Virus record (IMG/VR): IMGVR_UViG_3300029915_000091 | Location: 1-34,446 of that record | Direction: 5' to 3' (one strand) | Length of the DNA stretch: 34,446 bases | From: a virus | Shown here: positions 1,922-17,509 of the stretch, piece by piece | Layout of the letters: each line of letters opens with the position of its first letter | Numbering within the stretch: position 1 is the stretch's first letter | Position numbers and translations under genes: made by a program | The notes under the pieces: generated by a model | Databases searched by the model: none | The model's input: only the letters and a program-made list of their open reading frames with translations | What the model was told of the DNA's origin: nothing

Positions 1922-1960
1922 TCTATTAGCCTTCCACCTAATTTAACTTAGGAGCTAGAA

Positions 1961-2317
1961 ATGACGTAGAAGAACCCTTACATTTATGTGTTTGTTAGAC
2001 AAGATTTTCCCAAAGATAATCTTGCTCAACAAATCGTGCAGTCCAACCATGCCACCTTCGAGATGGCAAAACGCCTCACCAACTACGGTGAAATCCCTTC
2101 ACTGGTACTCATCGGTACTCCCGATAAGACCACCCTCGAAGCTATCGCAGAACGTCTCCAGCGTTACGGCATTGACTACGAGGCTTTCTACGAGTCCGAC
2201 AATGGTACGGGTCTCTCCGCCATTGCCACCTACCCCATCACCAAAAATAAGCAGCGTCACGCTCTCGGTATGTATCGTCTCTGGACGGCACAGGAGGCTT
2301 CCTATGCCACAGTCTAA
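1961..2317 (+). CDS. PTH2-like peptidyl-tRNA hydrolase with in-frame TAG at codon 3
   Basis: An AGGAG site six bases upstream points to the ATG at 1961. The frame reads ATG-ACG-TAG and then stays open for 115 more codons. The translation after TAG (KNPYIYVFVRQDFPKDN, QIVQSNHATFEMAKR, IPSLVLIGTPDKTTLEAIAE, then a turn and IATYPI) follows the PTH2 fold: first strand ending VRxDx, a helix with Q...HA, a strand, helix and closing strand. PTH2 enzymes release peptides from peptidyl-tRNA. Full-length product would need UAG readthrough, which the CTA-anticodon tRNAs at 4740 and 4827 could give. The alternative is initiation at GTG 1988, which trims the first strand and has no clear ribosome site. 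The family call is from pattern alone. Confidence 0.6.
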
Positions 2318-3040: not shown

Positions 3041-3510
3041 ACACCACACCGACACCCGGCATTGAACTTTTGATTCGCACCGACGCACTCCGCAAGATTC
3101 TTAACGACGACCCGGACACCCGTCTCAAGCTTCAGAGCATGGCGTGTGAGAAGATTGCCGAGGAGCTTAAACGCAAGGCCATTTCTCAGTTTGAGCCGCA
3201 GATACAGAGCATCATCAACAAGGCGATTGCTGACTGCAACATGACGCTCGCCAGCAAGTACAAGTTCCCGGCAGAAGCCAAGGCCATTATCGAGGAGCTG
3301 GCGAAGGAGAACGTGCAGACCTACTTCAAAGCGGAAATCAAACGCTGGGAAGCTACCATCAACGAGTTCTTCGCCGCCAAGCAAGCTGAGGCCAACGCAC
3401 AGACTGAGGCCAAAGTCATGGAGACTATCGAGAAGATGCGTCCCTTGATTCGCCAACAGGCTCGTGAGGAGTTCATCGCCACGCTTGAAGCCGTGCAGGG
3501 GGCAAAATGA
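3037..3510 (+). CDS. helical, coiled-coil-rich hypothetical protein
   Basis: The 157-residue product (MNTTPTPGIELLIRTDALR...) is almost wholly predicted helix, with a heptad-like charged stretch from about residue 85 to the end (IIEELAKENVQTYFKAEIKR; KQAEANAQTEAKVMETIEK). It is coupled to both neighbours: ATGA with the gene before it, and the ATGACGTAG start of the next gene sits on its stop. No family recognised; it could be a scaffold or assembly protein. Confidence 0.6.
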   Translation: MNTTPTPGIELLIRTDALRKILNDDPDTRLKLQSMACEKIAEELKRKAISQFEPQIQSIINKAIADCNMTLASKYKFPAEAKAIIEELAKENVQTYFKAEIKRWEATINEFFAAKQAEANAQTEAKVMETIEKMRPLIRQQAREEFIATLEAVQGAK

Positions 3511-3686
3511 CGTAGGTGGAAGAGAACCTCAAGCGGCTGGCCGAAGCGTTAATCAGTAGGGCATTTGTCTCCCACCGGGAGTATGAGGAATGCCGCTATT
3601 GTCGGGATACACAGAACGGGATGCAGGACATTGAGCATGATAGTGAATGCCCGGTACTCCTAGCCCAGGAGATACTCAGGGAATAA
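3507..3686 (+). CDS. small CxxC protein with in-frame TAG at codon 3
   Basis: The frame starts ATG-ACG-TAG, exactly as the PTH2-like gene does, and then continues open for 56 codons to TAA at 3684-3686. The ATG overlaps the preceding stop (ATGA) and follows CAGGGGG. The peptide after TAG (VEENLKRLAEALISRAF, then ECRYCRDTQ and IEHDSECP) has a convincing C-x2-C...H...C zinc arrangement and an amphipathic N-terminal helix, so it looks truly coding. Expression could use UAG readthrough or a GTG directly after the TAG (3516). Last gene of the operon. Confidence 0.6.
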
Positions 3687-4739: not shown

Positions 4740-4815
4740 GCGCCCGTGTACGTAGCGATTAACGTAGCGGTCTCTAAAACCGAACACGAGAGTTTGAATC
4801 TCTCCGGGCGCACCA
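4740..4815 (+). tRNA. putative amber-suppressor tRNA (anticodon CTA), first of two
   Basis: The acceptor stem GCGCCCG/CGGGCGC is perfect, followed by encoded ACCA; the T arm is GAGAG-TTTGAAT-CTCTC. The anticodon arm GCGGT-CTCTAAA-ACCGA has four good pairs and a G-A at the base; the loop CTCTAAA has T33, CTA at 34-36 (4774-4776) and A37, the same loop as the classical tyrosine amber suppressor. The D arm TACG/CGTA is unusual (no GG pair in the loop, no base 26). It is class I with discriminator A. The charged amino acid cannot be told. Confidence 0.65.
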
Positions 4816-4826
4816 ACCTTAATAAT

Positions 4827-4901
4827 GCCCCCGTAGCTCAGTGGCAGAGCCAGCACTTCTAAATTGCTAGGTCGTGGGTCCGATTCCCACCGGGGGTTCC
4901 A
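4827..4901 (+). tRNA. putative amber-suppressor tRNA (anticodon CTA), second of two
   Basis: It fits standard tRNA geometry: acceptor GCCCCCG/CGGGGGT, D arm GCTC-AGTGGCA-GAGC, variable loop AGGTC, T arm GTGGG-TCCGATT-CCCAC, encoded CCA. Anticodon arm AGCAC-TTCTAAA-TTGCT has four pairs and a C-T mismatch next to the loop; T33 is present and bases 34-36 are CTA (4859-4861). Moving the loop one base to read TCT (Arg) destroys the stem, so CTA is preferred. Lies 11 bases after the first suppressor. Confidence 0.65.
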
Positions 4902-7117: not shown

Positions 7118-7402
7118 ATGGCTAAGAAGAAAGTAAAGTTGTGCTACCACTGCAAGTGTAACCACAAGCGGTTTAAAGAGGGTGGAGTTTTCTACTCCTA
7201 TAAAGAGAGCAACGGACTGGATTAGCCCCCTGCCGCTATTGACAAGTTTCGCAAGGACACCACGGCAAAGGTGAAGTCCATCATCAAGAACCAGCAGACC
7301 ATTCTGGCTATTTTGAAGGACAAGGTCGATATCATCAAGAAGGCCACGGAGCCTCAGGATATCGAAAGAGCACTGGAAAGTGCCAATTACTATAGAAGGT
7401 AG
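7118..7402 (+). CDS. small CxxC protein with an internal in-frame TAG
   Basis: ATG 7118 follows GGAGG by six bases. The frame encodes 35 residues (MAKKKVKLCYHCKCNHKRF, then GGVFYSYKESNGLD), meets TAG at 7223-7225 and continues for 58 good codons (PPAAIDKFRKDTTAKVKSII, ILAILKDKVDIIKKATEP) to TAG at 7400. There is no start codon just after the internal TAG, so the second half can be made only by readthrough. Codon usage looks coding on both sides. The N-terminal half has a CxxC/CxC zinc site and the second half looks like an amphipathic helix pair. Function unknown. Confidence 0.6.
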
Positions 7403-9943: not shown

Positions 9944-9971
9944 CAAAACCAAGCCCATCCACACCGTGTAA
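9936..9971 (+). CDS. 11-residue minigene
   Basis: ATG 9936 with AAAGGAGAA well placed upstream; encodes MANKTKPIHTV and stops at TAA. It may be a leader peptide or translational coupler for the gene at 9998. The strong ribosome site is the only support. Confidence 0.3.
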   Translation: MANKTKPIHTV

Positions 9972-9997
9972 CTAGTGGACGGCATAGGAGTAAGCCA

Positions 9998-10297
9998 ATG
10001 CATCCCTCTAACCGTGCCGAACGTAGGCAGGAACGTGAGCGTGTCATCGCTCGTCGCAAGTTCATCCATGACCACATCTGGTTTCAATCCCAACACCACA
10101 CCGACCCCACTGTCATGCCATGGGCACAACACCCGCCCTTCTCAGAATTTGGCCGTTATGCCAAGTTCAACCTAAGCTGCGGGTGTATGGGCTGCCACTG
10201 TGCGAAACACTGGTACAAAGATAGACGCCGCCGTGCCCTTAAAGTATCCGATTCAGTGGCTGACCACCGCAAACGGGATAAGGTAGCCGGAAAATAG
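9998..10297 (+). CDS. basic hypothetical protein with Cys cluster
   Basis: ATG 9998 follows ATAGGAG. The 99-residue product begins MHPSNRAERRQERERVIARR, has a HTDPTVMPWAQHPPFSEFGR middle and CGCMGCHCAKHWYKDRRRRA near the end. The layout (basic N-terminus, GRxxK, then a CxCxxC cluster) resembles a widespread small bacterial/phage family with a CSCxMCGNPRR motif, though the GNPRR part is replaced. Nucleic-acid binding is plausible. The TAG stop directly precedes the TAGACA box of the next promoter. Confidence 0.6.
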   Translation: MHPSNRAERRQERERVIARRKFIHDHIWFQSQHHTDPTVMPWAQHPPFSEFGRYAKFNLSCGCMGCHCAKHWYKDRRRRALKVSDSVADHRKRDKVAGK

Positions 10298-15036: not shown

Positions 15037-16089
15037 ATGATTAAGCCTGATATCGGTATCGTTGTCGGACGGTTCCAAGTCCACGAACTACACGAGGGAC
15101 ATCTGGAACTCTTCCGCATCGTCAAGAGCCGTCACAACCGGGTAGCTGTGTTCTTGGGCTGCACCAAGACGGGGCCGAATCGGAAGAATCCTTTGGACTA
15201 TGAAACCCGCGAGAAGATGATTCATGATGACTTCCCCGATTTCACTGTCCATGCCTTACAGGACAAGAAGACCGACGAGGAGTGGAGCCGGGAGCTGGAC
15301 GCCCGCATTGACGACATCATTGGCGGCGGACCCGCTTCGGTAACCTTGTACGGTTCACGGGACAGCTTCGCCCCACACTACCACGGCAAGCACAAAGTCA
15401 AGGAACTCGACATCGAGGTTCCCCCCTCCCTCAACGGTACTGACATCCGCGCCCGCTTGACCAGCCAGATTAAAAAGTCGGCTGACTTCCGGGCGGGAAA
15501 CATCTACAACGCTGGCCTTGGGTATCCTCACTGCATCCCCACCGTGGATGTGGCCATTCATCACGACAAGCACATTCTCGTTGGACGCAAACCGGGCGAA
15601 CCCGGCTGGCGGTTTATCGGCGGACACGCTGAGGTCACAACTGACTCCTACGAGGAGGACGCCAAGAAGGAGGCCATGGAAGAGAGTGGTCTGCCCATCT
15701 CAAACGTCACATACATCGGCTCCAAGCGGATTGATGACTGGCGTCATCGTGGTACCGAGAACGGCATCAAGACGGCTTTCTTCCTCGCTGAGTCGATGAC
15801 CTTCGGCGGTACTGGAGCGGATGACATTGAAGAGGTTCACTGGCTCCCACTCGATGAGATGAAGCCGGAAGATTTTGAACCGGAGCATCAGCCGCTGGTG
15901 GTGATGTTGACTACCTACCTCATCAACGCGACGAAGCGGGAGGAGGCATACACCGGAGTTGACAAGAAGCTTAGATTGATGTTCCGCAAGTTGGGTACAG
16001 AGGGCAATTTGACGGGCAAGGAGCTTGATGCATTCATTGAATCAGGCGTAAAGAAGTTTTGCCAAAGCGCATTCGAAAGGAGAGGATAA
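15037..16089 (+). CDS. nadM: bifunctional NMN adenylyltransferase / Nudix hydrolase (NadM-Nudix)
   Basis: The 350-residue product has two domains. Residues 1-~160: a nucleotidyltransferase with GRFQVHELHEGH (11-22; the GRFQxxHxGH signature with a short insert) and NGTDIRAR (133-140; equivalent to ISSTxxR), which joins NMN and ATP to NAD+. Residues ~165-300: a Nudix domain with box GGHAEV...DAKKEAMEESGL (195-219), one residue longer than the usual spacing, expected to hydrolyse ADP-ribose or a related nucleotide. Its gene is four bases before NAMPT, so the two form an NAD+ salvage operon. Confidence 0.9.
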   Translation: MIKPDIGIVVGRFQVHELHEGHLELFRIVKSRHNRVAVFLGCTKTGPNRKNPLDYETREKMIHDDFPDFTVHALQDKKTDEEWSRELDARIDDIIGGGPASVTLYGSRDSFAPHYHGKHKVKELDIEVPPSLNGTDIRARLTSQIKKSADFRAGNIYNAGLGYPHCIPTVDVAIHHDKHILVGRKPGEPGWRFIGGHAEVTTDSYEEDAKKEAMEESGLPISNVTYIGSKRIDDWRHRGTENGIKTAFFLAESMTFGGTGADDIEEVHWLPLDEMKPEDFEPEHQPLVVMLTTYLINATKREEAYTGVDKKLRLMFRKLGTEGNLTGKELDAFIESGVKKFCQSAFERRG

Positions 16090-16093
16090 CATC

Positions 16094-17509
16094 ATGGCAC
16101 TATCGAAAATGTCCACAACCATTGACGGCAAGAGTGACCTTTACAAATACTCCCACTGGAGAGGCTACCCAAAAGGTACTCGTTTCGTTGAATCCTACCT
16201 CGAATTCCGTGTTGGTGCCAAGTATCGGCAGGTTGTTCCCTACGGCCTCCAGTACATCATGGAGGAATACCTCGCTGGGGTTCGCATAACCAAAGACGAG
16301 GTTCTTCGCCGCAATAAGAAGGTCACAGAGATGATGGGCGAAGGCGTATTCAACTTGAAGGGTTGGTTGGAAATGCTTGAAGCCCATGACGGTCGTATCC
16401 CGATTCGCATCAAGGCGATTCCTGAGGGCACCGTGATGGACACTTCAAACGCCATGGTCGTGGTTGAGAACACAGACCCGCGTTTTCCTTGGATTACAAA
16501 TTTCTGTGAAACCTCCATCATGAAACTGTGGTACCCATCCACTGTTTCCAGTGGGCAGTTTGCAAGGCGGCAGATGTTCCTCGCTTTTCTGCACAAGACC
16601 GGCGACCCCAATCTCATCGACTACAAGTGGGTGGACTTTGGCTATCGCGGGGTTTCTTCAGAGGAGTCTGCGGCTCTGGGTGGCTCGGCTCACTTGCTTA
16701 GCTTCCGTTCGAGTGACACGATGATTTCTGATGATTTCGTGGAAGCTTATTACGGCTCTGACCACGTGCAGATGGGTAGCGTCCCAGCCTCGGAGCACTC
16801 CACTATGACCACGTGGGGTAAGGACAACGAAGCTGGTGCCGTTGGCAACATGCTAACCTCATTCCCCAAGGGCATTGTCTCCATCGTTGGTGACTCATAC
16901 GACTATGAAAACTTCGTCCGCAATATCATCGGTGGCAAGTACCGCGATGAAATCCTACGCCGCGAAGGTGTGGTCGTGGTTCGTCCCGACTCCGGCGACC
17001 CCGCCTCAATGGTTCTCCGCTCCTGCCAGTGGCTGGATGAGAACTTTGGCTCTGAGGCCAATGACAAGGGTTACAAGATTCTCAACAAGCACGTCCGCGT
17101 AATTCAGGGGGATGGCATCAATTATGACTCTGCATACGAGATTCTTGCTACGCTGGAACGTCAGGGATGGTCGGCTGACAACATCACATTGGGGGAAGGC
17201 GGCGGTGCTTTACAAGCCATAAACAGGGACACGGAGCGTGCGGCTCTCAAGGCTTGCGCGGTGGATATCGACGGTGTGTGGCATGATGTGTACAAAGACC
17301 CGAAGACAGACCCCGGCAAGGCGTCGAAGGCTGGTCACCTTGCGGTTGTCTGTGTCAATGGCGTCTACCGCACAATCCCCAAGCAGGATGGTATCATCTA
17401 CACGGAAGACCGCTTGGTTCCAGTGTTCGAGAATGGAAAGATTCTGAAGCGTTATAGCTTCGATGACATTCGCGCTCGTGTTGTGGCTAACGACATCACA
17501 GAGAGTTAA
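16094..17509 (+). CDS. nadV: nicotinamide phosphoribosyltransferase (NAMPT/NadV)
   Basis: The 471-residue product carries the NAMPT signatures: DLYKYSHWRGYP (15-26), WVDFGYRGVSSEESAALGGS, SSDT with Asp 208, SVPASEHSTMTTWG with catalytic His 235, GDSYD, VRPDSGDP with Arg 297 and Asp 299, and GEGGGALQAINRDT. The enzyme makes NMN from nicotinamide and PRPP; the neighbouring NadM then makes NAD+. Length matches the family (~470-490). Known phage pairs of this type rebuild NAD+ destroyed by defence systems. No truncation or missing residue seen. Confidence 0.95.
   Translation: MALSKMSTTIDGKSDLYKYSHWRGYPKGTRFVESYLEFRVGAKYRQVVPYGLQYIMEEYLAGVRITKDEVLRRNKKVTEMMGEGVFNLKGWLEMLEAHDGRIPIRIKAIPEGTVMDTSNAMVVVENTDPRFPWITNFCETSIMKLWYPSTVSSGQFARRQMFLAFLHKTGDPNLIDYKWVDFGYRGVSSEESAALGGSAHLLSFRSSDTMISDDFVEAYYGSDHVQMGSVPASEHSTMTTWGKDNEAGAVGNMLTSFPKGIVSIVGDSYDYENFVRNIIGGKYRDEILRREGVVVVRPDSGDPASMVLRSCQWLDENFGSEANDKGYKILNKHVRVIQGDGINYDSAYEILATLERQGWSADNITLGEGGGALQAINRDTERAALKACAVDIDGVWHDVYKDPKTDPGKASKAGHLAVVCVNGVYRTIPKQDGIIYTEDRLVPVFENGKILKRYSFDDIRARVVANDITES

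Follow-up and report, generated by a model that had tools for sequence, protein, structure and literature searches.

Code 15 crAss-like and Lak phages carry a tRNA-CTA of their own that reads UAG as a sense codon, and the idea that recoding in such phages acts as a switch exists in the literature (PMC10879173, PMC9523058, PMC11210395). Suppressor tRNAs of the same kind occur in jumbo phages, i.e. XacN1 and RsoM2USA (CUA) and Atu_ph07 (UCA). The authors of the XacN1 study could identify no target genes for its two CUA suppressors (PMC5852040), and RsoM2USA has also been reported to carry a suppressor tRNA (PMC8504454). Our set includes XacN1; no record named RsoM2USA was present among the PTH2-like matches of our two cultured-phage searches. 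In cluster C mycobacteriophages a PTH2-like gene has been reported within the tRNA array (PMC5966550), which includes an annotated tRNA-Pyl(cta), as here a tRNA-CTA. The text of that paper contains neither of the terms "suppressor" and "stop codon", and we found no mention in it of the start-stop-like ATG/GTG TAG in front of this gene or of a link with tRNA-CTA. Text searches of open-licence papers returned none naming the link between a start-proximal amber and tRNA-CTA; a prior description may exist elsewhere.

In prfB, which encodes release factor 2, an early in-frame stop codon ties the synthesis of a translation-related protein to the state of translation. The arrangement described below is similar in this respect, but would depend on triplet decoding by a dedicated phage tRNA, not on frameshifting. 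The bar minigenes of lambda functionally link AUG-codon-stop minigenes with Pth, whereas here the minigene would be the 5' end of the PTH2-like gene itself. Recycling by Pth following early drop-off has been described (PMC10192219).

In the present study we analysed a 34.4-kb IMG/VR virus record, apparently a fragment (the whole stretch is referred to as the window), and its relatives. Unlike in the code 15 phages, the standard code is kept, and UAG would have a sense meaning at no more than a few sites, start-proximal or in linkers, of specific genes; recoding can thus be confined to single sites, which coding-density scans would miss. The reading that we favour, with a probability of roughly 75%, is that the suppressor tRNA is dedicated to a few start-proximal ambers and would license a tRNA-linked PTH2/HD module.

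Two tRNA-CTA genes and two amber-containing genes of the window

The features concerned are as follows:

4740..4815, + strand: first tRNA-CTA gene, including the encoded CCA (tRNA body 4740-4812); anticodon loop CTCTAAA, discriminator A73, mismatch at 27:43; Rfam score 50.6 bits
4827..4901, + strand: second tRNA-CTA gene, including the encoded CCA (tRNA body 4827-4898); anticodon loop TTCTAAA, mismatch at 31:39; Rfam score 54.4 bits; also detected by ARAGORN
1950..1954, + strand: Shine-Dalgarno-like AGGAG, 5' of the ATG at 1961, read from the sequence
1961..2317, + strand: PTH2-like gene beginning ATG ACG TAG; amber at 1967-1969 (codon 3), the TAG kept in homologues
3507..3686, + strand: small Cys-rich gene beginning ATG ACG TAG; amber at 3513-3515 (codon 3), M-T-TAG kept in relatives

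The genes at 4740 and 4827 are genuine tRNA genes with the anticodon CTA, as an earlier sequence-only reading of this DNA had claimed. Both exceed the Rfam gathering score for tRNA (29), and the covariance-model alignment gives each a canonical tRNA fold with a seven-base anticodon loop, U33 and CTA at 34-36; a TCT anticodon is ruled out for both by the same alignment. The anticodon stem of each contains a single mismatched pair, and ARAGORN missed the first of the two genes. The DNA pattern of the second tRNA, run over IMG/VR, hit four loci, none with a tRNA. Two adjacent suppressors had been regarded as unusual; in this group of phages they are not, since two or three are present in XacN1, in LR756501 and in most of the window's close relatives.

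The ATG ACG TAG starts at 1961 and 3507 are the only two occurrences of ATGACGTAG in the window, and a long open frame follows each. The ATG at 3507 and the TGA stop of the ORF before it overlap, which resembles translational coupling, and all five members of this family (the window, G001, G006, L183 and L190) have M-T-TAG together with a Shine-Dalgarno (SD)-like motif. Since homologues keep the TAG in both genes, the two in-frame ambers exceed chance. A third gene proposed by the sequence-only reading lacks support: the open frame at 7118-7396, which lies between tRNA genes, has its TAG at codon 36, more TAGs follow in frame, and no homologue was found among 14 related records. We therefore rejected it as evidence.

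Elsewhere in the window (15037-17509), a cytidylyltransferase-like/Nudix gene adjoins a nicotinamide phosphoribosyltransferase gene, forming an NAD-synthesis pair; the latter, used as a query, mostly returned phages without the start-proximal TAG. A genome_contigs scan found no cellular relative.

Conservation of the start-proximal amber in the PTH2-like family

Among the searches for relatives, three used queries that lacked the TAG codon and were therefore not biased towards it. The part of the 1961 gene following the TAG matched proteins of cultured phages, one of them annotated as a peptidyl-tRNA hydrolase. The window protein is predicted to have the PTH2 fold: its AlphaFold model (pLDDT 85.4) matched 12 PDB entries with E below 0.001, all of them PTH2-type structures, with a TM of about 0.7. 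The cut-off of Pfam PF01981 (PTH2) was passed by the homologues of pT24, XacN1, LR756500, LR756502 and LR756511, the window protein scoring below it. The lysine of the GKxAAQ motif is catalytic in PTH2; in the amber-containing family it is replaced by Gln or another residue, so hydrolase activity is uncertain, and tRNA binding or an altered activity is possible.

An in-frame TAG beside the start was observed in 34 of 40 non-redundant groups, usually at codon 3. In the clustered set before four groups were added the amber was present in 30 of 36, at codon 3 in 22 of these and at codons 4-13 in the others. The starts include (i) MT#, MH#, ML# and MRKAIGDL# in IMG/VR relatives (# denoting TAG), (ii) ATG GCA CAA TAG in GAP32 and CBB, (iii) ATG GCT CAC TAG in XbC2 and Kaldavass, (iv) ATG ACG CAC TAG in SNUABM_19, and (v) ATG CTG TAG in Arash, ATG ACT TAG in ME3 and ATG AAA TAG in pT24; the metagenomic LR756500 and LR756502 also carry a start-adjacent TAG. 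In XacN1 and RAS14 an HD domain precedes the PTH2-like domain in one fused gene; the amber is then found at codon 3 of this gene (ATG AAG/AAA TAG) and so stands at the new N-terminus. The PTH2-like ORF364 of XacN1, extended upstream to this start, is a strong candidate for the target of its suppressors.

In 23 of the 30 groups the start before the TAG has an SD-like motif upstream of it. In an unbiased scan of 1385 ATG-...-TAG ORFs over 39 sequences the PTH2 family ranked first (33 members, 27 with SD), and the 3507 family (five members), the HD family (three) and a fourth pair were also recovered. This pair (L187 11969 and L189 9569) is a conserved MT# gene (MT#xVKEAAE...), with no assigned function, beside tRNA-CTA genes. 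As regards an opal counterpart, the annotated archaeal-type Pth of Atu_ph07 (466378-466845) has no N-terminal in-frame TGA and keeps the GK motif.

Association of the amber with tRNA-CTA

A tRNA-CTA was found in 31 of the 34 groups with the amber and in two of the six without it (Fisher p=0.005, the independence of these related phages being overstated). Among complete genomes it was present in all eight with the amber and in none of the three lacking it (RCIP0023, Hallingskeid and S-CBWM1; p=0.006, again optimistic for related phages). The exceptions weigh against the amber as a licence: L196 and L206 have a tRNA-CTA and no amber in their fused PTH2 gene, while the examined DNA of the TAG-containing groups L005, LR756502 and LR745206 yielded no clear tRNA-CTA, a pattern search of LR756502 giving one weak, ambiguous tRNA. 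Moreover, L225 needs a change of frame (9964-10030: ATG...CAG TAG G), the PTH2 frame resuming only after a one-base shift; the cause may be an error in sequencing or a frameshift like that of RF2.

Each of the 23 loci tested had a tRNA-CTA within 5 kb of the PTH2-like gene on the same strand, and in 13 it was the nearest tRNA, although PTH2 tends to adjoin tRNA arrays in general. Mismatches at 31:39 were observed in 17 of 49 distinct tRNA-CTA and in 28 of 523 other tRNAs; a connection between shortened anticodon stems and the reading of stop codons has been described (PMC13092985).

Two other suppressor-like tRNAs were recorded, i.e. one in L003 (12326-12405) that adjoins a tRNA-CTA and whose anticodon loop has eight bases (read as CTAG by ARAGORN), and an ochre-anticodon (TTA) tRNA present besides tRNA-CTA in RAS14 (OP752703, 302428-302502).

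The HD-domain partner gene

In the GAP32 group an HD-domain gene lies downstream of PTH2 and has a TAG at codon 47 (DTG#GDP). Its codons were identical, synonymous and non-synonymous in 16, 8 and 1 cases upstream of the TAG and in 17, 6 and 2 downstream; the PTH2 gene of this group also gave 17, 6 and 2 downstream, its upstream part being too short to score. The HD gene thus combines a conserved in-frame stop with apparent protein selection on both sides, the pattern of a readthrough gene. Its homologues in ME3 and Arash are uninterrupted, and such homologues have varied residues at the amber site; L191 and L207 have the amber at another position of the same linker, and L188 at the N-terminus (ML#). 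The repeated appearance of ambers in this family would be hard to explain except by selection. No HD gene was found near the PTH2 gene of the window.

The HD protein contains an HDGKP-type motif, its PF01966/HDIG scores are below the cut-off, and in sequence it matches best, among PDB entries, an A-adding enzyme in its HD region (E 0.022). Further frames of GAP32 that share a TAG were set aside, being mostly antisense or upstream of ordinary starts.

Initiation before or after the amber

Instead of being read through, AUG-X-UAG could be a short upstream ORF controlling reinitiation, in which case the protein would start past the UAG, from either an ordinary start codon or a rare one, and the tRNA would not be needed. 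Some start codon is present before the conserved motif in 13 of the 30 groups, and in six the codon next to the TAG is ATT, which is known to serve occasionally as a start. In mycobacteriophages GTG stands right after the TAG, and the genes are annotated from it; this placement, found in some others too, also counts against the licence. However, no ATG, GTG or TTG lies between the TAG and the motif in 17 of the 30, and in many GTT, ACC, AAC, AAT, AAG or CTG follows the TAG. In the window the single start codon after the TAG is a GTG (residue 10), and initiation there would cut beta-1 (residues 7-13) of the model. Reinitiation leaves unexplained the correlation with tRNA-CTA, the ambers inside the HD gene, where coding is conserved both before and after them, and the bias of the base 3' of the UAG: 29 of 30 groups have a purine there, compared with 81 of 193 TAG terminators of CTA-bearing genomes (p=3e-9). 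In E. coli, amber suppression is promoted by a purine at this position.

A later query without TAG matched 193 Mycobacterium phage records, and a 100-base stretch around the start recurs with at least 90% identity in 190 records. In the six phages in which the exact codons were read the amber is codon 2, within ATG TAG GTG (I3, Cane17, Grungle) or GTG TAG GTG (Myrna, ScoobyDoobyDoo, Phabba). A TTGACA box is accompanied by a TACTGT-like -10-like hexamer that ends 6-7 bases 5' of the first start codon, although a consensus promoter scan did not list this site. The spacing is that expected of a leaderless message and suggests that the ribosome would be forced onto the UAG at codon 2, contrary to reinitiation. 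A tRNA-CTA follows the gene at a distance of about 130-310 bp; ARAGORN reads CTA in the tRNAs annotated as tRNA-Ser in Myrna and tRNA-Arg(tct) in Phabba. Taken together, we consider initiation past the UAG unlikely, and decoding of the amber by the phage tRNA remains the preferred reading.

Probable variation of the inserted residue

The discriminator bases of the 49 distinct tRNA-CTA vary (A in 24, G in 12 and U in 5), and the inserted residue therefore probably varies as well; Gln, which had been named as the usual residue in phage suppression, is thus not established. Constitutive suppression, in which the residue itself matters and the amber has no regulatory role, is compatible with the sequences, and the residue would sit near the N-terminus. 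Nevertheless, the amber lies in a variable tail, uninterrupted HD homologues differ at the corresponding site, and acceptor stems differ as do the discriminators, which makes a single required amino acid improbable. This explanation is in our judgement less probable still than reinitiation, and a varying residue is probably more consistent with a gate than with a residue that is itself required.

In XacN1 (36047-36205 and 354842-355000) two adjacent tRNA-CTA have common D, anticodon and T arms and different acceptor stems and discriminators (A, G), as if built for two different synthetases.

Phage tRNAs vary their anticodon loops, so tRNA-CTA could have arisen from other tRNAs, by decay or as nuclease-resistant variants, and have no relation to the TAGs; this is very unlikely, as the position of the TAG is conserved over distant phages and matched with the presence of tRNA-CTA.

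TAG as a terminator

TAG ends about six of the 35 window ORFs of at least 100 aa, in agreement with the sequence-only reading, and 12 of the 386 ORFs of GAP32. Genome-wide reassignment of TAG (code 15), in which it would be sense across many genes and avoided as a stop, is thus ruled out in the window, and in those cultured phages that were examined, despite the presence of tRNA-CTA: besides these terminators, the window is filled by long standard-code ORFs and has two supported in-frame sites. LR756501 (735 kb), with a further internal TAG, may be a code 15 phage. TAG terminators, whose rarity might have betrayed suppression, were not rarer in phages with tRNA-CTA than in those without, which suggests that ordinary stops are suppressed weakly or that their suppression is tolerated.

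Proposed mechanism and its significance

The conserved start-proximal TAG, the co-occurring tRNA-CTA and the TAG terminators strongly support the selective decoding of UAG, and the purine context agrees with it; the further notion of the earlier reading, that this serves as a switch, is one that we infer. Without a suppressor, translation would start at AUG (or GUG) and RF1 would terminate it as soon as one to a few codons had been read. With the tRNA array of the phage transcribed, matured and charged, the suppressor would compete with RF1 and the protein would be made; in relatives the HD-domain partner would be decoded likewise. The amber would then be a licence coupling expression of the module to a working phage tRNA pool in the infected cell.

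A more speculative layer may be added. AUG-codon-stop minigenes cause peptidyl-tRNA drop-off, which yields the substrate of peptidyl-tRNA hydrolases, and AUG-X-UAG would be a two-codon minigene of this type. Feedback through PTH2 from drop-off at the two- or three-codon stub is conceivable.

We regard it as an even bet that this is a widespread and old phage device, in which a dedicated suppressor, acting in trans, unlocks a few start-proximal ambers, the host code is unchanged, and a tRNA-processing PTH2/HD module depends on, and perhaps feeds back on, the phage tRNA pool. The arrangement is shared by many large phages whose hosts belong to Proteobacteria, Bacteroidota and Actinobacteria (e.g. 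Xanthomonas, Tenacibaculum and Mycobacterium), some of them propagated on M. smegmatis mc2 155, and the question can now be addressed by proteomics on existing isolates. If the reading is true, synthesis of the protein would require a functional tRNA supplied by the phage itself. For the suppressor tRNAs of standard-code phages, previously without an identified target, a candidate can now be named.

The annotation of these genes also needs correction, as PTH2-like genes are truncated or absent at the amber site in several records. phrog_26054 (46 aa) and phrog_34073 (77 aa), which match amber-severed stretches of the HD and PTH2 genes, respectively, look like annotation artefacts, i.e. fragments cut at the amber. 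No permuted (two-piece) tmRNA gene (RF04321) was found in positions 1-2000 of the window; such a gene lies upstream of the PTH2-like gene in the close relatives L001 (1291-1558), L003 (6002-6217), L007 (5614-5896), L008 (8363-8556) and L183 (8262-8529).
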